Shown one piece after another: positions 99 to 63,418 of a stretch of DNA of 63,418 bases. The position numbers were made by a program, and so were the translations under genes. Every line of letters starts with the position of its first letter. Positions within the stretch are counted from its first letter, which is position 1. A model generated the notes under the pieces. It was not told the origin of the DNA and did no database searches. It was given only the letters and a program-made list of their open reading frames with translations. The DNA comes from Prosthecobacter debontii (GTDB taxonomy: Bacteria > Verrucomicrobiota > Verrucomicrobiia > Chthoniobacterales > Chthoniobacteraceae): contig CAMDQC010000010.1 of the NCBI GenBank assembly GCA_945905735.1, positions 1 through 63,418 of the forward strand, read 5' to 3'.

Positions 99-1070
99 CT
101 ACCCCGGCCGCGTCGTCACCACCGCATTCGAGCCCGCCTCGTTGTCCGTATCGCTGATCACATAAACCTTCATCACCACCGAAGCCCCCGGCTGCGTCAG
201 CCCGAAGCTCGTGATGAACTCCGGCGCGTCACCCGGCGCGTGCTCGGCGATCGTCACCGCCAACTCCTCGTCCCACTTCGTCCCCACGTGACCACGCAGT
301 TGCACCTTCTTGATGCCCGATTGCGTCACCGCCGAATGCACCACCTTCGCCTTGTCCGGCGCCTCGAAAACCGAAGACGCCGTCACCGCATCCGGCGTCG
401 CGCCCGGCTCCGGCGACAGGCGCGGCAGCGTCGCCAACAGCGCCGGATGCGCCGAACACATCGTCGGCACCGCCTGCCGGTACACCTTCATCGTCGCGTA
501 CGCCACAAGCTGAATCCGCGACCGCACCTCGCGCGCCAACCGCAAATCTTGGTCCGCCGAAGCCGCCTCAATATACGCCTCCTCCAGCGCCACGATTTTG
601 TTCCCGAAAGCGTTCTGCGTCGCCCCGTCCGAGAGCACAATCGGCAGCGCCAGCCCAGGGCGCGCGGGCGCCGCGTCGAGCTTTAGCCACAGACTCTTCA
701 CATCGTAGAGCGGCTTGGTGAAAGCCTCACGCCCATCGCTGATACTCGGCGCACCGGGACGCGCGGGAAAAAACTTCGTCCCCACATAATACGAGTCCAT
801 CAGCCCGGTAAAAAGGTTCAGCTCCCGCAAAAGCTCGGTCTTTTTGATCTCGATGTCGGCCCGCGCGATCTCGATGTCGTTGAGCTTGTCCTGAATATCC
901 TGGTCCGCGCCCACGAGCGCCGCCCGGATGCTGAGAAAGCCGCTCCGCTCCATCGAAGCATCGTTGACTGTGAGGGTGAGCGGCGGGCTGATAGCGGAAT
1001 TGACGTTAATCCAGTGCCCGAGGAACTCGTCCACGGTCGGAATGTAGGAAGCGTTTGATGTGATAGCCAT
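99..1070 (-). CDS. Protein of unknown function, helical N-half plus beta-rich C-terminal domain (array-associated, copy 1)
   Basis: I do not recognise the family. The 323-aa product has no signal peptide and no membrane segment. Residues 1-205 look alpha-helical, with charged stretches such as DIQDKLNDIEIARADIEIKK. A Pro-rich linker (LSPEPGATP) follows, and the last 90 residues look like a beta-sandwich of FN3 or Ig type ending in VVMKVYVISDTDNEAGSNAV. The start is firm because an in-frame TAA lies two codons upstream of the ATG at 1070. No Shine-Dalgarno is present; the start is preceded by CTCAACT-type heptamers. The gene at 61601-62554 has the same length, layout and upstream architecture, so I infer that the two are distant paralogues. 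Upstream lie a palindromic element and a 21-bp-period array. The function is unknown. Confidence 0.8.
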   Translation of the reverse strand: MAITSNASYIPTVDEFLGHWINVNSAISPPLTLTVNDASMERSGFLSIRAALVGADQDIQDKLNDIEIARADIEIKKTELLRELNLFTGLMDSYYVGTKFFPARPGAPSISDGREAFTKPLYDVKSLWLKLDAAPARPGLALPIVLSDGATQNAFGNKIVALEEAYIEAASADQDLRLAREVRSRIQLVAYATMKVYRQAVPTMCSAHPALLATLPRLSPEPGATPDAVTASSVFEAPDKAKVVHSAVTQSGIKKVQLRGHVGTKWDEELAVTIAEHAPGDAPEFITSFGLTQPGASVVMKVYVISDTDNEAGSNAVVTTRPG

Positions 1071-1463: not shown

Positions 1464-1715
1464 AGACCATCGGACGACACGACCAGTGCGTCGGTCGGGC
1501 CGTACAGCGCGTATTTTCACACCGACAGCACGTCGGGCACCATCGGAAGCACGTCGGCCCATGCCAAAAGTGCGTCGGGAGCCTCCAACAGCGCATCGGG
1601 CGCTAAAACCAGAACATCGGGCTATAGAAACAGCAACCTCCCGAACCATACGACGCTCTCCGCCCGCCACCCGACGCACCAAAAAAACAGTCCGGGCGCA
1701 TGAAAACCAGTCGAG
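1464..1715. repeat. Fuzzy tandem array with exact 21-bp period (array 1)
   Basis: Units begin at 1464, 1485, 1506, 1527, 1548, 1569, 1590, 1611 and 1632, always 21 bp apart, and weaker units follow at 1653 and 1674 before the phase decays. The first ten bases of a unit follow AGNRCRTCGG (examples AGTGCGTCGG, AGCACGTCGG, AGCGCATCGG), while the next eleven differ from unit to unit. The array is noncoding with respect to the adjacent gene, whose frame is closed by a stop just before its ATG. A 21-bp period equals two helical turns and would place every core on the same face of the DNA. The flank 1716-1906 is C/A-rich and shows no gene. It is not a CRISPR array: units are too short and spacers only about 11 bp. 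Confidence 0.85.
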
Positions 1716-1928: not shown

Positions 1929-2960
1929 TCAACAAGGATTTGCGCGCGAATGGTTTTTTTCGTGCCCGACGCCCAATGTTTTCGTCCATCCTTTGACCGC
2001 CTGCTCCGCGAGTGCAAGTGCTTTGGTGAAGTCTTTCTTTTTCTGGTATAGGAGCGCAAGGTTATATGCCGTGCGGCAGGTATACGGACGCTCGGAGCCA
2101 CGTGTGTCATCAAGTGGATGGAGGCTGCGGAGGAAATCCGCCTCCGCGCGGGTGATATCGGGTTTGATGCTCAACGATTCGGCAAGATTGCCTGCGCTGA
2201 GAAGTTTTGACGACGAGCCGGAGTCATACAGTCGTTCTTGGTCTTTCAGTGCCCGCTCATAGAGGGCAATTGTGGCGGTGGTATCTCCCTTTTTCGCACG
2301 CAGTTCAGCGAGCAGGGTGACGCATTTGATGGTGTCTTCGTGAGCGCTACCGAGGGTCTGCTCGCGCACTTTTAGGACGCGACGGCAGAGGGTCTCGGCG
2401 GAGGCTAGGTCGCCTGTTGCGCTTTGCAAAGTGGCGAGGGTGTAGGCACGGCGGAGGGTATCCGGGTGCTCGGGGCCGAGGGTGTGCTCGCGGTAGGCGA
2501 GGGCGGTTTTGGCGAGTGGGAGTGCCTCCTCGAAGTAATCGTTTCGCTGATGCACGGCGATGAGGATTTCGTTCACGCCGCTCCTTGCATCGGCGTCCGA
2601 GTCCTGATCGAGCAAGGCGGCGGCGGAGCGCAGGTGGGCGACGGAATTTTCGTATTGGGAGTTGCGCGCGTCGATGATCGCGATGTTGAAGTGAAGGTGG
2701 AATTTGTTCTCTCGGAGTTCTTCGGCTTCGTCTGGTGTTGCGGGGATGGTTTTTTCCAGCTTCTCGAGCATCGCGGGCATCTGCGAGAGGTCGTCGATTT
2801 GGAGCGCGCGTTCGGGAGGGCAGATTTCGATCGGGCGGGCGGGGGGCAGTTCTTTCTTCGGCGGCACTATCGGTTTCTTTTTCTCCGCGCCGATGGCGAT
2901 GCTTGCGGAGAAGATGAGGATCGCGGCGAGTGCGATGCGGGCTGTTGCGGGCGAGTTCAT
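1929..2960 (-). CDS. Exported TPR-repeat protein
   Basis: The chosen ATG at 2960 gives a clear signal peptide (MNSPATARIALAAILIFSAS then AIGAEKKK). Upstream in-frame ATGs would add an implausible Ser/Pro-rich leader. The roughly 343-aa product carries kinesin-light-chain-type TPRs (TPR_10/12 style) with the hallmark LGPEHPDTL and LGSAHEDTI loops at about 42-residue spacing, which suggests a periplasmic protein-interaction scaffold. The last repeat is broken. After TLGVGHEK an A7 tract (plus-strand T7 at 1954-1960) puts the frame into NHSRANPC and a stop. With one A fewer it would read on as GHEKTIRAQILVDTLKYTR to a stop at 1907, which better fits a TPR helix. The partner is unknown. Confidence 0.75.
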   Translation of the reverse strand: MNSPATARIALAAILIFSASIAIGAEKKKPIVPPKKELPPARPIEICPPERALQIDDLSQMPAMLEKLEKTIPATPDEAEELRENKFHLHFNIAIIDARNSQYENSVAHLRSAAALLDQDSDADARSGVNEILIAVHQRNDYFEEALPLAKTALAYREHTLGPEHPDTLRRAYTLATLQSATGDLASAETLCRRVLKVREQTLGSAHEDTIKCVTLLAELRAKKGDTTATIALYERALKDQERLYDSGSSSKLLSAGNLAESLSIKPDITRAEADFLRSLHPLDDTRGSERPYTCRTAYNLALLYQKKKDFTKALALAEQAVKGWTKTLGVGHEKNHSRANPC

Positions 2961-3130
2961 GGCGCGGAGTGTGGGGATTTGCGGGGGCGGTGGCAAGGCG
3001 GAGTGTGCGCGCTCGTTGTGTGTGGATGCGGATTCTAAAATGATGCGGCGTGCGGGAATGGGAGCGTCGGGATTCGTGCCGCTTTGGATTGCGCGAGGAG
3101 AGCGGGGAGTTTTTGAGGGGAAGGAGATCG

Positions 3131-3160
3131 ATGGATTTTGCACTTTGCGTTTCGGTTTGA
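3131..3160 (+). promoter_or_regulatory. Possible 9-codon leader peptide coupled to the rhomboid gene start
   Basis: An ATG at 3131 is preceded by a strong purine-rich ribosome binding site (GGGGAAGGAGAT) and opens a nine-codon frame, MDFALCVSV. Its TGA stop at 3158-3160 overlaps the ATG at 3160 of the rhomboid-like gene (TGATG). The rhomboid gene has no Shine-Dalgarno of its own, so translational coupling from the leader is a reasonable reading. Expression of the leader is not shown by sequence alone. Confidence 0.4.
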
Positions 3161-45346: not shown

Positions 45347-47308
45347 CTAACCGACTGCGGGTATGCCGTGAATCAAGTCCTTGAGCGTCTGGAGTAACTT
45401 GTCGGCCGTGTAAGGCTTTTCGAGAACTGACTTAATGCCGATGGCGTCGAGCGCGGCTTGGTTCTGTTTTTGAATGTGGCCGCTGGAGACAATGACTTTG
45501 ATTTCTGGGTTCAGCTTTCGCAGGGAGCGGACGAGCGTGAGTCCGTCCATCATGCCCATGTGCAAGTCGGTGATGACGATGTCGATCTCCCTCCGCTCGA
45601 AGTAAAGGGCGAGTGCGTCCGTCCCGTCCTCAGCGGTGTAGCAGCGATAATTGTGCGACTCCAGCGTGCCGACGATGGCCTCGCGGATTGGCGCTTCGTC
45701 GTCCACGACGAGGACGAGTTCGCCGTTGCCGCGTAGCCCTTCGAGAGAAATTTCTTGGGCCGCCTCGGTCTTGGCTTCGCGGTCGGCGGGGATGAAAACT
45801 TTGAACGTCGTGCCCACGCCGACTTGGCTCTGGATCGTGAGGAAGCCTTTGTGCCCTTTGACGATCCCGATGACGGTGGCGAGGCCGAGGCCGGTGCCTT
45901 TCCCCTGTTCTTTAGTGGTGAAGAATGGGTTGAAGATTTTGTCCATGACCTCGGGCGTCATGCCGGAGCCGGTGTCGGTGACGCTAAAGCAGACGTGCGG
46001 CCCGCACGTGGCACCGGCATTGGTGCGGACGAGGTGTTCGTCCACCTCCATGTTTTCGCAGGCGACTTTAAGCGTGCCGCCGCGTTCGCCCATCGCATCG
46101 CGGGCGTTGACGCAGAGGTTCAGCAGCACTTGGTGGAGCTGGGTGGAGTCGCCCAGGACCATCCACAAGTCGGCGGGGAAGTCCGTCCGGATGTCTATGT
46201 TTTTAGGGAAAGTCTGCTGCATGACTTTCGTCATCTCAGAGGCGAGGTGCTTCGGCTGGAGCAGCACGCGCTCGCCTTCCACGCCTCGGGCAAATGTGAG
46301 CACTTGCTTCACGATGCCCGCGCCCCGTGCGGCGCTGGCTTCGATAATGTTGATCATCTTTTGCTCTGCGGGACCGAGCGATTGGCGCATGATGCCGACG
46401 GCCATCATGATGGGGGAAAGGATGTTGTTTAAGTCGTGCGCGATGCCGCTGGCCAGCGTGCCGATGCTCTCCAGCCTTTGTGCGCGGAGGAACTGCGATT
46501 CGAGTTTCTTCGTCTCGGTGATGTCGCTGTTGATGAGCAGGATGGACTTGGGCTTCCGCTCGTCTTCGTCGCGGGCGAGCGTCCACCGGCTGTTGACGAT
46601 GACTTCGCGCCCGTCCTTGCGCTCGTGGTTCATCTCGCCGGCCCACTCTCCTTTATCCAGCAACTCGGTGATGCACTTAATGGCGTCGTCGGAGTTGAGG
46701 TGGAAGAGCTCCTGCACGTTACGGCCCAAGGCTTCGTCGGCGCTCCAGCCATAGATCTTTTCCGCGCCGATGTTCCAGAAAAGGACTTCGCGGTTCAGGT
46801 TGCAGACGATGATGGCGTCGGCGGCGAGGTTCAAGACGTGGGCAAGCTCGCGGTTTTCCTCCTCGGTGCGCGTCTGCTCGCTGCGGTCGGTGATGGTGAC
46901 GAGCGCCGCCTTGCGCCCGTGAAACCGGATGATCTGCCAAGCCGTCTCGACGGACAGCAGCGTGCCGTCCTTCGTCCGATGCCGCCAAGCGTCCTGCGTA
47001 TTCAGCCCGCTCCGAGCGATGGACTCCATCTGCCGCCGGTAGTCGTGAAAATGGGCCACGTCTTCGGGCGGGCGCACTTTATCCGCAGTCATGGCGAGGA
47101 ACTCATCGCGCGACCAGCCGTAGCGTTTCGTCGCCGCGCCGTTCACGTCCTTGAAGCCGCTTGTCTCCAAATCGAATATCCACATTGGCAGCGGGCTACG
47201 GTGGAACAGCTCGTCAAAGCCCGGCAGGGAGTCGGGCGGTGCGAGCACGGTCGGAAGAGCCACGGCTGGCGGATCAAAAAATGGAATTGGCTTCGGGCGC
47301 GAAAACAT
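45347..47308 (-). CDS. Hybrid sensor histidine kinase with two PAS domains and a receiver domain
   Basis: 653 aa. Order: PAS 1 (about 30-145, LFHRSPLPMWIFDLETSGFK), PAS 2 (about 155-275, HVLNLAADAIIVCNLNREVL), dimerisation/phospho-acceptor helix GIAHDLNNILSPIM (His), ATPase domain with N box LLNLCVNARDAMG, G boxes DTGSGM and GKGTGLGL, and a C-terminal receiver domain with phospho-Asp in VITDLHMGMMDG and Lys in LEKPY. It has no membrane helix, so the sensor is probably cytoplasmic. No HPt protein or output partner is adjacent. Part of a phosphorelay. Confidence 0.95.
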   Translation of the reverse strand: MFSRPKPIPFFDPPAVALPTVLAPPDSLPGFDELFHRSPLPMWIFDLETSGFKDVNGAATKRYGWSRDEFLAMTADKVRPPEDVAHFHDYRRQMESIARSGLNTQDAWRHRTKDGTLLSVETAWQIIRFHGRKAALVTITDRSEQTRTEEENRELAHVLNLAADAIIVCNLNREVLFWNIGAEKIYGWSADEALGRNVQELFHLNSDDAIKCITELLDKGEWAGEMNHERKDGREVIVNSRWTLARDEDERKPKSILLINSDITETKKLESQFLRAQRLESIGTLASGIAHDLNNILSPIMMAVGIMRQSLGPAEQKMINIIEASAARGAGIVKQVLTFARGVEGERVLLQPKHLASEMTKVMQQTFPKNIDIRTDFPADLWMVLGDSTQLHQVLLNLCVNARDAMGERGGTLKVACENMEVDEHLVRTNAGATCGPHVCFSVTDTGSGMTPEVMDKIFNPFFTTKEQGKGTGLGLATVIGIVKGHKGFLTIQSQVGVGTTFKVFIPADREAKTEAAQEISLEGLRGNGELVLVVDDEAPIREAIVGTLESHNYRCYTAEDGTDALALYFERREIDIVITDLHMGMMDGLTLVRSLRKLNPEIKVIVSSGHIQKQNQAALDAIGIKSVLEKPYTADKLLQTLKDLIHGIPAVG

Positions 47309-59400: not shown

Positions 59401-60915
59401 GAGCTTCCCGCCTTTCTTCACATCGATCTCCATCGCTTCCGGGGCCGCTACATTCGTTGCTCGGAAGACCTCTTTGCGGTCTGCATCGAGGAGCGTGATT
59501 GTGAAACCATCGAGCCTGCTCGCGAGTTCACCGCGATTCCAAATACCGATCTTCTCGATGTCCTTGGCCTGCCCGAGATCCAGCTCCCACCACGGCAGTG
59601 TCATTCCCTCGTTAGCGGTGTGCGTCTGCCCCTTCTTGTTGTAGTCCGCATCCTTGTTGCCATCGATCGCCCGCGCCGCCACTCCGTCGCCATTCGTGCT
59701 GGATTGTGTCGCTTTACCGCTCGGCGCGATATTCTTCCCGTCGCTGATGACCTCCACCTCCGCAAGCGTGAGGATGCGTTTGTCGCCGGGCAGTTCGATG
59801 CGGACAAAACGCGCCTGCTTCCCCGTGACCAGCGCCGCTGCCGCCTCCGCGCCCTTCGCGCCTTGGTCGCCCTGCGCGCCGTCCTTCTTGTTCTCCTGCT
59901 TCTTCGCAGGCTTCGTCGTGTTGTTGTTCGCCGGGATCGGGCTCTCGAATCCCGCATACATCTCCGGCTTGATGCCCCGCGCATACGCGCCGCCAGCGAA
60001 GGTGTTCGGCTTCGCAGCGCCGAGGAATGCGATGTTCAGGTCCGGCTTGATCGCGTCCTCCATGCCCAGCGCCCATAGGCACCCGTTTACCAGCATCCGG
60101 CGGTAGCCCTCATTGAGGATGTCCTCCGAAGTCCCGTAGAGCGAAGTGAAGACGCGCCCCGTTTTTCCCGAGGCCGACTTGTAAGTGCGCGTCCACTCCG
60201 AAGGCTGCGGCGGCTTCTTCGCATCGGCAGGGGAATCCGGCGTCATCCCATCGAGCGGCTGCGCCATCGTCAAAATCTCGCCGTCGGTCGGCTTGCCCAC
60301 ATAGCCGCCCGCTTGCACCCAAATGTCCTTCACGCCGCGCAAAATCGGATGCGCCTTCTTGTCATCGACGATTGTGATGCGCGTGCTCTGCTTGTGGTTC
60401 TGGCCGTAATGCCCCACCCACGTCTGCCCGAGCACCTGGTGCCCAAAGCCCAACTCATAATCCGCGCCCTTGTAGTCATACGAATACTTCGCAAACGGAT
60501 CATCCTTCGGCAGCTTGAACCCATGCGTCGCCGTGCGCATCCCGATCACCGGCCCGCCGCGTTTCAGATACTCATCAAAGTGCTGCATCTGCTCCTTCGG
60601 GAAATTTTGGAAACGCAGAAACACCACCGCGAGGTCCGCCGAATCCAGCGCCTCCAGGCCCGGCATGTCCGAAGTCCCCCCGACAATCTCCCCCGTCGCT
60701 TTATCGATATTAAAAAGCACCGTACACTTAAATCCCTGATGCTTCGCGAGCAGTCGCGCCATTGCCGGAAGCGATTCCTCCGAGCGATACTCGTGGTCCC
60801 CCGCCAAAAAGACGATGTGCTTGCCCTTGCCGGGCCCCTCCGTGCCTTCGTAAACAAGCGGCGCAGCACTCGCGAAAGTCGCGAACGCGATGAGGACGGT
60901 AATAATGTGTTTCAT
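56425..60915 (-). CDS. Giant exported ThuA/F5-8C/SGNH/PVC-dehydrogenase-like/cupredoxin protein
   Basis: 1496 aa with a signal peptide ([20 protein letters not shown]). In order: a ThuA-like domain (about 30-290; [31 protein letters not shown]), a Lys/Ala-rich linker, an F5/8 type C (discoidin) domain (about 365-520), an SGNH hydrolase (about 560-760; [39 protein letters not shown]), a PVC-type membrane-bound dehydrogenase-like beta-propeller (about 860-1250; [20 protein letters not shown]), a short HEAT-like helical part, and a C-terminal cupredoxin (about 1390-1496) with copper ligands in [22 protein letters not shown]. The cupredoxin replaces the cytochrome c domain that usually ends such proteins. 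It probably oxidises or binds carbohydrate in the periplasm. Confidence 0.9.
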
Positions 60916-61365: not shown

Positions 61366-61582
61366 GGGTGTGATTAAAAGTGGAATGGATCGAAGTCGCG
61401 ACAGCGACAAGGAGCGGCGACATTCCTGTCGCTGTCCTTAAAGCGCGAAGCGCCCAATATCGAGCACCGTGCAGTTTCCCAGAGCCGTGCGTATCTGATT
61501 AGGCGCTTCACGCTATGGGGACAGCGACAAGAATGTCGCCGCTCCTTGTGCGCTTCGCGCTATTCCACTTTTAATCGCACCC
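61366..61582. repeat. Large palindromic element B (direct copy at 63188)
   Basis: Ends GGGTGTGATTAAAAGTGGAA at 61366 and its complement at 61563-61582. Inside, ACAAGGAGCGGCGACATTC near 61407 pairs with GAATGTCGCCGCTCCTTGT near 61531, and CTGTCGCTGTCC pairs with GGACAGCGAC. The first 163 bp (61366-61528) are nearly identical to 63188-63350. Its termini closely match those of element A, so both belong to one family. Not coding. Confidence 0.8.
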
Positions 61583-61600
61583 CCCGCGCCCCCCTCCCCC

Positions 61601-62554
61601 CTACAAAATCGGCTCGCCAATCGTGATACTCCGCACAGCCGTCGTCCGCGTGGCGGCGCTGTTTTTCACTTCGGTATAGACCTTCACCACCTGGTCCACC
61701 TCGAACGGCCCGAGCGCATTCCCGCTCATATCCAGCGCGACTTTCGTGAACTCCGCGTCCACCCCTTCGATCTTGAAATAGACCGATTTTTCCGTCGCAT
61801 GGTCGCCCCCACCCGGCACGAAACTCACCAGCGCCTGGAGCCCCTCCTCGCCGCCCTGGGTGATCGCATCGATCTCGATCGGCTCTGGCGCAGGAGTGCT
61901 AGGCTCGGTGGTGATTCCGCCCAGCGCCTCCTTGAGGACCGTGCCTTCATCAGCAACCGCATTTGCATACTTATAGAATCGCTTATTAAGCTGGTCGCAA
62001 TCCCGGTCATGCGCCCGCAAGTCCGAGCGCGAGGTATCCAGAAGCACTTTTTTATCCGAGATGACATTAACCAGCCCATTATAGCTATCTAGGAGCGCCA
62101 GTGCCGCCACAGCCGTATAGGCGACACCCCCGACGACGCGGATGAGCGGTGCCATCCCACCCGGCAGCGCCGCAAGGGCCGTATTCGCGCGCAGCCAGAC
62201 GGGTATTAGCTCCCGCAGGCGCTTCAAAATAGACCCCTCATCCCGAGGCGGCGTGCGAAAGACATCCTTCAAGTCCTTCATAACGACCTCATCCTCAGAA
62301 AGTTGACTATCGATCATCTGCGGCACCTTCACCCCCAGCACCCGCATCGCCGCAAGGGCCGTTTGCGCCGCACGAAACGCCGCATCAAAATTATCCTGCG
62401 CCGCCACGCGAGCCTGTACGAGCGGCTCAAACCCATCAATCAACGCGCTCAAAGTCGCAGGCGTCGAAGTGCCGATCGTAACCGTGGGTAGGTGTTGCTG
62501 CCAGACCGGATAGGTCTGAATAGCCCGCGCTTTAGTGATTTCCCAGTATTCCAT
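61601..62554 (-). CDS. Protein of unknown function, helical N-half plus beta-rich C-terminal domain (array-associated, copy 2)
   Basis: 317 aa if started at the ATG at 62554 (MEYWEITKARAIQTYPVWQQ). The frame runs open to 63172, but that stretch consists of repeats and palindromes and is probably not translated; the chosen start also matches the firm start and length (323 aa) of the gene at 99-1070. Residues 1-215 look helical (LSALIDGFEPLVQARVAAQD, DCDQLNKRFYKYANAVADE). A Pro-rich linker (TEPSTPAPEPIEID) follows, then a C-terminal beta domain ending VDQVVKVYTEVKNSAATRTT. There is one moderately hydrophobic helix (VVGGVAYTAVAALALLD), no signal peptide, no Shine-Dalgarno. It sits between elements B and C, and a 21-bp array lies upstream. 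Unknown function. Confidence 0.75.
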   Translation of the reverse strand: MEYWEITKARAIQTYPVWQQHLPTVTIGTSTPATLSALIDGFEPLVQARVAAQDNFDAAFRAAQTALAAMRVLGVKVPQMIDSQLSEDEVVMKDLKDVFRTPPRDEGSILKRLRELIPVWLRANTALAALPGGMAPLIRVVGGVAYTAVAALALLDSYNGLVNVISDKKVLLDTSRSDLRAHDRDCDQLNKRFYKYANAVADEGTVLKEALGGITTEPSTPAPEPIEIDAITQGGEEGLQALVSFVPGGGDHATEKSVYFKIEGVDAEFTKVALDMSGNALGPFEVDQVVKVYTEVKNSAATRTTAVRSITIGEPIL

Positions 62555-62577: not shown

Positions 62578-62710
62578 TGTGTAAAAGAGGCTGTAGCGGC
62601 TGGCTGCCCGCCGGAAACGTCTGGTCCCAGCGCAATCCGCTGTCCCACGTCGCCCCTGGGGTATCCCAGCGCAGCGGTATCGAGTCAGGCATCGGCGGTG
62701 TTGGCGAACG

Positions 62711-62836
62711 GTGCTGCTGTGTATAAAAATTGTGCTGCTGTATACGCAGGCAGTTCTGCTGTGTGTGAAAATTGTGCTGCTGTGTCTGCAGACAGCTCTG
62801 CTGTATCTCAAAATTGTTCTGCTGTTTCCATTGATA
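62711..62836. repeat. Fuzzy tandem array with exact 21-bp period (array 2)
   Basis: Six units start at 62711, 62732, 62753, 62774, 62795 and 62816. The first ten bases follow GTKCTGCTGT (GTGCTGCTGT three times, GTTCTGCTGT twice, GCTCTGCTGT once), and the next eleven vary, alternating between AAAATT-ending and GCAGGCA-like forms, which gives a 42-bp superstructure. Weaker units at 62901, 62922 and 62943 are again 21 bp apart. The array ends 157 bp upstream of the start at 62554. The core differs from that of array 1, while period, core/variable split and position are the same. Its 7-residue translated repeat (QQHNFYT type) is probably incidental. Confidence 0.85.
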
Positions 62837-62963
62837 GAGTCGCTTTCCTTTCCTCTCTACCCGCTTTTGATCTACACCACAAGAGCTTTTTATAAATTTT
62901 GTTCTGCTGGGTGCAGTGTCATGTCTGCTGTTTGTGGCTCTGATGTCGCCGCAGAAGCGGAGA

Positions 62964-63187: not shown

Positions 63188-63350
63188 GGGTGTGATTAAA
63201 AGTGGAATTACGCGGAGTCGCGACAGCGACAAGGAGCGGCGACATTCCTGTCGCTGTCCTGAGAGCGCGAAGCGCCCATTATCGAGCACCGTGCAGTTTC
63301 CCAGAGCCGTGCGTATCTGATTAGGCGCTTCGCGCTATGGGGACAGCGAC
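63188..63350. repeat. Palindromic element C, truncated direct copy of element B
   Basis: Starts GGGTGTGATTAAAAGTGGAA like element B and stays nearly identical to it for 163 bp (match 61366-61528). It then departs: the right arm that would pair back (GAATGTCGCC... to TTCCACTTTTAATC) is replaced by unrelated sequence. Elements B and C are therefore direct repeats about 1.8 kb apart that enclose the second array-associated gene and its array. Confidence 0.8.
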
Positions 63351-63418
63351 GGCTCCCCGCTGTTTAGAGTGGGATTCAGAGAGGAACGGCATTGATGAAC
63401 TGGGCCGGATTCTTGGGG
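63351..63418. other. Right edge, no gene seen
   Basis: Sixty-eight bases after element C. No start, stop or repeat is clear enough to annotate. A gene may begin or end beyond the window. Confidence 0.3.

Follow-up and report, generated by a model that had tools for sequence, protein, structure and literature searches.

Locus-specific 21-bp repeat arrays upstream of orphan genes in Verrucomicrobia: candidate helically phased protein-binding platforms

Background

Phased direct repeats are already known from several systems. In plasmid R388, the stbDRs are two sets of direct repeats that lie before the operon of their binder, StbA (PMC3098194). Iterons of other plasmids are bound by Rep proteins and have a unit of 22 bp in R6K and pPS10 and of 17 bp in RK2; a half-turn separation of two iterons abolishes their cooperative binding (PMC4980987). 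TIGR arrays are made of repeats of 8-12 nt and spacers of 9 nt, with two alternating repeat types, processed RNAs of 36 nt and a Nop effector, and the same source gives CRISPR repeats as ~25-36 nt with spacers of similar size (PMC12045711).

Here we analyze a window, i.e. the whole stretch of 63,418 nucleotides from an assembly of Prosthecobacter debontii, that carries two arrays in which a short word recurs every 21 bp. Like the R388 stbDRs, they combine a short conserved word, a fixed spacing and a position before a gene; unlike them, they repeat every 21 bp (two helical turns) with locus-specific words rather than as a single 9-bp word spaced by 2 bp (one turn), and they occur at many chromosomal loci beside genes for acidic proteins without a known DNA-binding domain, whereas the plasmid repeats serve stability and transfer (PMC3098194). 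With iterons, they share direct repetition in the 17-22 bp range (PMC4980987), but they differ in their inverted arms, their locus-specific words and the lack of a Rep gene beside either array of the window, where the neighbors are a gene for a TPR protein and the orphan families A and B. The resemblance to TIGR arrays lies in short repeats alternating with short variable stretches and in a repeat sequence that depends on the locus (PMC12045711); the arrays described here nevertheless have mostly one repeat per unit, with 42-bp double units in the second array of the window and at L157, L176 and L184. CRISPR differs in unit size from the present 21-bp unit with its core of 8-10 bp, and no Cas family was found among the few neighbors scanned. 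As in minisatellites or VNTRs, whole units are gained or lost and arrays are homogenized, and copy number does vary, by one unit between the genomes G000 and G002; on the other side stand one recurrent period, inverted units on a common lattice and what looks like a conserved word joined to a free spacer. An earlier note on this DNA had found a poor fit to CRISPR, iteron and VNTR patterns alike, of which the misfit to CRISPR holds, whereas iteron and minisatellite readings fit in part only, and membership among the TIGR systems fails. What is new is the combination of a fixed two-turn period, locus-specific words and inverted copies on the lattice, for which no matching system was found in the open-licence literature, searches on Verrucomicrobia included.

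Results

Two arrays in the window

Scanning the window at periods of 18, 21 and 24 bp with a threshold of 12 yielded two 21-bp arrays, at 1447-1635 and 62695-62841, with no third one above threshold in the 63 kb, no 18-bp array and a single weak 24-bp segment (13.7 at 46663). For period 21, the log Bayes factor (lnBF) reaches 37.8 at array 1 and 50.0 at 62651-62900, which holds array 2; when the complete window was shuffled by dinucleotides 20 times, the highest value was 10.2. Identity at fixed lags across 1464-1715 likewise peaks at 21, 42 and 63 bp (0.489, 0.419 and 0.397), so that both the existence of array 1 and its period, as claimed in the earlier note, are borne out.

The main arm of array 1 extends over 1464..1652 on the plus strand, with the core AGNRCRTCGG (CCGAYGYNCT on the gene-sense strand). 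Nine consecutive units had been proposed. Their phase is indeed exact; the core is well held, with at most one mismatch, in only seven of the nine slots at 21-bp steps from 1464 (at 1464, with one mismatch, and at 1485, 1527, 1548, 1569, 1590 and 1611), and the slots at 1506 and 1632 are degenerate, with more than two mismatches and little beyond AG kept. Two inverted core copies, AGAGCGTCGT and GGTGCGTCGG, occupy 1650-1659 and 1671-1680 with one mismatch each, forming a minus-strand arm at 1650..1680 that falls on the same 21-bp lattice in a two-arm model, the gain of that model at this locus (L005) being only 4.4 nats. Exact core pairs 21 bp apart are confined to array 1 in the whole assembly of 5.19 Mb and 258 contigs (four overlapping matches, with none in the backward control); isolated single cores occur elsewhere in the window three times on the plus and twice on the minus strand. 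Array 2, at 62711..62835 on the plus strand, consists of 21-bp units with the core CTGCTGT, arranged as 42-bp double units.

Each array lies 5' of a minus-strand gene: array 1 of gene 1 (99..1070; 323 aa, family A) and array 2 of gene 2 (61604..62554; 317 aa, family B), which has an in-frame leader with a possible start near 62692. The gene neighboring array 1 has, as had been read from the letters, an in-frame stop directly before its ATG (TAA CCA ATG). A minus-strand gene for a TPR protein (1929..3143) adjoins array 1 on its other side and is given as context only.

The proteins and their neighborhoods

Neither gene product has a match in Pfam or NCBIfam above the curated cut-offs, and family B, the only one compared with PHROGs, has none there. 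A single profile comparison links families A and B with an hhalign probability of 92, and gene 2 thus appears to be a distant homolog of gene 1. AlphaFold2 models, with a mean pLDDT of 88.0 for gene 1 and of 92.7 for L059 of family B, contain long helices, of which two measure 53-54 residues, and a C-terminal domain which Foldseek matches to fibronectin type III, such that the gene 1 protein combines long helices with an FN3-like domain. FN3 domains predominate among the Foldseek rows shown, and a few long matches fit poorly; pectate lyases head the rows for family A, with ~92 columns aligned, and the viral library returns phage tail and FN3 proteins. The proteins at L015 and L026 end ahead of the C-terminal domain, and that at L006 differs after residue 230. 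The isoelectric point lies between 4.8 and 5.9 in 26 of the 27 listed proteins; the one outlier, at 9.3, is the L006 entry, which is truncated. We accordingly rejected the encoded protein as the DNA binder, on account of its acidic pI and the predominance of FN3 domains in the Foldseek matches; as the encoded proteins are acidic and do not resemble DNA binders, a reader of the arrays would probably be another protein.

An origin from phages or plasmids was likewise rejected, since tblastn with one family B protein, L059, came back empty against 50,697 phage and 72,556 plasmid records, and neither of two viral_contigs scans confirmed a relative. Nor is there a conserved upstream partner gene: by Pfam the neighbors include TPR, TIR-NB-ARC-TPR and LRR-Roc-COR-TIR proteins, and by reading of translations LRR-like, katG-like and cytochrome-like ones, and this variation in type between loci argues against a general partner.

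Arrays accompany families of orphan genes

Family A was found in three and family B in eight of 57 genomes searched; family B further occurs in 10 of 213 genomes of the order and in 2 of 387 of a phylum sample, its own genome included, and the ten GTDB loci with family B are labeled as Verrucomicrobiota MAGs. Thirty-three loci with sufficient upstream DNA and a placed start were used, leaving out contig-end fragments, split genes and weak matches (e.g. L009, L014, L016, L017, L032, L033, L035, L050-L054 and L065), and removal of the near-duplicates L008, L010, L018, L019, L028 and L060 gave 27 loci for counting. Among periods of 10-40, 21 is the best in 25 of these (exceptions L013 and L022), and upstream lnBF at period 21 exceeds 14 in 24 against a background allowing for codon periodicity. 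The three below this value are L059 (13.6), L021 (10.1) and L022 (-9.0), the last having the gene with no array. Simple lag identity also places period 21 on top in 15 of the 27 gene bodies, but once codon periodicity is modeled, none of the 27 exceeds lnBF 14. It had been considered that related strains might lack the periodicity; at the orthologous places in G002 (both arrays) and G004 (array 2) the gene is missing along with the array, and homologous genes elsewhere carry one in the 24 of 27 loci.

Core words vary between loci or gene lineages, as exemplified by GGAACGTC (L025), CAACGTCGG (L031), CCGGACGGCTG (L034), CATTTTAG (L011) and CCCGGCGTCTG (L036). A second family, defined by the orphan protein of L160, was found in 9 of 97 genomes and has a 21-bp array upstream in 12 of 16 loci (lnBF 54-128), or in 11 of 15, since a single gene is split between L188 and L199; the arrays of L187 and L192 were already part of the 1.57-Mb scan described below. 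Loci L190, L195 and L202 have no array, and L201 offers only 146 bases upstream. The cores of L187 and L196 differ at a protein identity of 66%.

Inverted copies on a common lattice and possible constraint on the core

Core alignment was carried out on 23 loci, 10 of the 33 having been left out as low-scoring or near-duplicate. The core of 16 aligns to the profile of the remaining loci at p ≤0.05; those that do not are L011 (0.52), L023, L006, L024, L043, L005 and L020. Two opposite arms beat one by more than 10 nats at 13 loci. Both orientations share a lattice offset of 0, relative to reference column 9, at 16 of the 23 loci and at 10 of the 13 above 10 nats, including all nine plus-to-minus ones; off the lattice are L011, L012, L015, L023, L024, L042 and L043, with L011, L012 and L024 exceeding 10 nats. 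When everything outside the best single arm was shuffled in 168 control runs, none gained more than 10 nats and six had offset 0, with eight expected; 16 extra runs, from L029 and L058, do not count as controls because the single arm there spans both orientations. The binomial probability for 16 of 23 on the lattice is 1e-16, a figure that ignores both the choice of the reference column after the data had been seen and the shared ancestry that may explain part of the agreement.

The core is more contiguous than expected from a neutral simulation of duplication and decay (p 0.05) in 24 of 42 arrays, or 22 of 40 distinct ones, the remaining 18 of the 42 not beating neutral decay; this comparison covered arrays with at least five units and a single-arm lnBF of 25 or more, less three near-duplicates. 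Tested against column shuffles, 11 of 48 arrays show a palindromic core at p ≤0.05. Most cores are therefore asymmetric, and palindromic dimer operators were rejected as a general rule.

Genome-wide occurrence

In a sample of 1,574,082 bases, drawn by contig order from G037 (~1.1 Mb) and G000 (~0.47 Mb) and scanned at periods of 16-27, we found 22 matches at period 21 (lnBF 14-197; 19 in G037 and three in G000), as against four at 18, three at 24 and two at 27 (lnBF 14-31) and none at 16, 17, 19, 20, 22, 23, 25 or 26 bp. Two of the 22 lie within predicted genes (L160:7963 and L173:10855). A sample of 722,132 bases, partly picked for known loci, gave 24 matches at period 21, including two microsatellites (L095) and, at L086 and L089, two pairs that fall in the same array regions, together with six at 14 bp, one at 15, two at 22 and two at 28, and none at 18, 19, 20, 23, 24 or 27 bp. 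Ten genomes without families A, B or L160 (351,879 bases) had eight matches above 14: three at 21 (L206, 36.5; L220, 20.9; L222, 68.1), with the other five split between 22 and 24 (two each) and 18 (one). The array at L222 lies within a long frame, and that at L206 looks intergenic. Where these gene families are missing, period 21 is thus not special, and the contrast with the array-rich genomes is one of degree.

The context of the arrays was read from 25 of them, namely the 22 less the two in genes plus five from earlier G037 stretches. Genes were called with a script based on codon usage, and the arrays of L157 and L078 overlap a weak predicted frame. Fourteen lie before the start of a gene for a small orphan protein; the other 11 have no orphan gene, five lying between two gene ends (L110, L168, L171, L176 and L181) and six in other contexts. 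Since those five are placed between converging gene ends, a promoter role cannot be general. Twelve of the 14 orphan proteins were scanned against Pfam, of which 11 had no match and L180 had a weak fn3 match below cut-off; the remaining two are family B.

Discussion

A proposed platform for a putative binding protein

What can be regarded as established is an exact two-turn period, a locus-specific core, a mostly orientation-tolerant lattice, noncoding status for the class, linkage to orphan genes and one whole-unit gain or loss. We propose, with a probability of roughly 0.42, that array 1 belongs to a chromosomal, noncoding class of helically phased arrays in some Verrucomicrobia, which would be multi-site platforms for a putative binding protein, each with a locus-specific word and traveling with orphan genes. 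On this proposal, a locus-specific word of ~8-10 bp would recur every 21 bp, with the other 11 bp acting mostly as a spacer of fixed length, and the two-turn spacing would bring every copy to the same side of the helix. A sequence-specific DNA-binding factor, probably a protein other than the encoded one, could occupy these sites cooperatively, and the nucleoprotein platform so built might control or insulate the linked gene; array and gene might travel jointly as a cassette. Joint inheritance or matching of word and reader would explain why each lineage retains its word. The earlier note had offered two ideas, a row of binding sites on one face of the DNA and a transcribed array whose variable half carries information. 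The former is the better supported, given the exact 21 bp at many loci, the inverted copies on the lattice in 16 of 23 and the contiguous cores in 24 of 42, with binding itself being an inference.

Competing explanations

The spacers do not support an informative variable half. In four sets of close paralogs, whose arrays diverge by 8-35% per site and whose third codon positions differ by 7-12% (four pairs from three of those sets), the spacers differ through point changes that are about as frequent as those at third codon positions, or more so, and the core has evolved only a little more slowly than the spacer (odds ratios 0.36-0.97; p<0.05 in one of eight comparisons). An array that is transcribed and processed into TIGR-like RNA guides would have repeats and spacers of about the right size, judging from the TIGR description (PMC12045711), and among 48 arrays folding z falls below -2 in 12 for one strand and in 11 for the opposite one. 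Against it stand this drift of the spacers by point changes, the single repeat type per unit in most arrays, the inverted units, a mean folding z of ~-1.2 and the absence of Nop (PF01798) from 38 genomes, G000 and G037 included, in a search that did give a signal in 4 of 14 control genomes. With no Nop, no general RNA structure and no Rfam match at the gathering score in the window, we consider RNA guidance very improbable and reject it. Still less credence can be given to coding heptad repeats, translated now or formerly. The 21 bp do equal seven codons, and the frame of gene 2 runs open through array 2, spelling QQHNFxT-like heptads; however, 7 of 28 arrays have none of the six frames open (L006, L011, L021, L026, L028, L034 and L058, of which L021 and L028 are near-duplicates), inverted units are present, and the heptads are rejected for the class by these closed frames. 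The same closed arrays, and an in-frame stop within 15 codons ahead of the start in 13 of 31 listed genes, answer the concern that the repeats might be in frame with a conserved protein. The noncoding status claimed for array 1 is consequently drawn from its relatives, as a class, since array 1 taken alone has three of six frames open, and array 2 four.

Two further alternatives are unlikely to a similar extent and deserve more weight than the preceding ones. Functionless minisatellites, i.e. 21-bp tandem duplications at various stages of decay, would account for the near-perfect repeats at L181, L036 and L116, the double units of 42 bp, the one unit more in G002 than in G000 (in the arrays of L187 and L188/L199) and the 18 of 42 arrays that fit neutral decay. 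They do not explain a single period across unrelated loci, with no arrays of 19, 20, 22 or 23 bp in 1.57 Mb, nor the lattice shared by inverted units, the contiguous cores in the other 24 arrays and the location before orphan genes. Alternatively, the array might be the address or end of a mobile gene cassette, a cis-site that moves or targets array and gene, solo arrays being left-over or target sites. Near-identical sets have array and gene in common and little else, the conserved block beginning near the first unit and ending near the stop codon, between unrelated flanks (L059/L060, L021/L028 and L007/L010/L011). Similarity to G002 stops at window positions 3123 and 60915 and that to G004 at 60890, i.e. 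beside both modules and beside module 2, respectively, and the adjoining 680-790 bases at the orthologous places (both arrays in G002, array 2 in G004) hold no array, which suggests that gene and array are both missing there. The patchy spread, with family B in 10 of 213 genomes of the order, and the 11 of 25 arrays without an orphan gene point the same way. Conversely, neither a recombinase nor a target duplication was noticed in an unsystematic look, similarity between L008 and L013 runs ~170 bases past the stop, and recombination between dispersed repeats beside array 2 would equally move the block. Integron cassettes consist of a single gene and a cis element of variable sequence and are patchily distributed. 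The modules described here are alike in these respects, but they have a phased array 5' of the gene instead of one hairpin after it. At L008 and L013 a hairpin followed by GTTAGGC stands ~170 bases after the gene, beyond which the copies diverge; we take this motif to resemble the core of integron attC sites.

The boldest reading would be a genome-wide address system, in which many single-gene cassettes carry a word every two turns in either orientation, to be read through its 21-bp lattice by shared machinery that accepts any word or by a word-matched reader, so as to be placed, silenced or insulated; we regard this as doubtful. The arrays offer an entry point to several small-protein families without a match in the libraries used. 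If they are protein platforms, one genome would be running many binding specificities in parallel, and if they are cassette addresses, they would represent a new kind of mobile-gene organization.

Additional observations

Some features of individual loci may be recorded here. The family B loci L056-L061 have an in-frame leader resembling MPNP..HWDDG..FWDDGSTW ahead of the usual start, and their true start may lie ~46 codons farther upstream. The family B genes L030, L031 and L032/L035 have an internal stop or are split in two pieces, so some copies of this family look broken. Genes for TIR-NB-ARC-TPR and LRR-Roc-COR-TIR proteins (L057:1755-4577 and L061:2643-5441) adjoin two modules; PADLOC gave no match on six neighbor proteins.

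Three stretches of the window, 61366-61583, 63188-63276 and 63350-63418, belong to dispersed and partly palindromic repeats of ~220 bp that recur many times in G000 and G002. The final 68-69 bases of the window have 100% matches at about 20 places listed from other G000 contigs, often near a contig start, and the contig thus probably breaks at a repeat.

Two 22-bp arrays exist, at L212 and L098. The former (L212:10129-10275, in G013) is iteron-like, with a nearby frame that reads like a mobilization or coupling protein. The latter (L098:14209-14313, on G000:C38) has the core CAACCCAGA and lies upstream of an orphan-looking protein encoded on the minus strand at L098:13140-13928.
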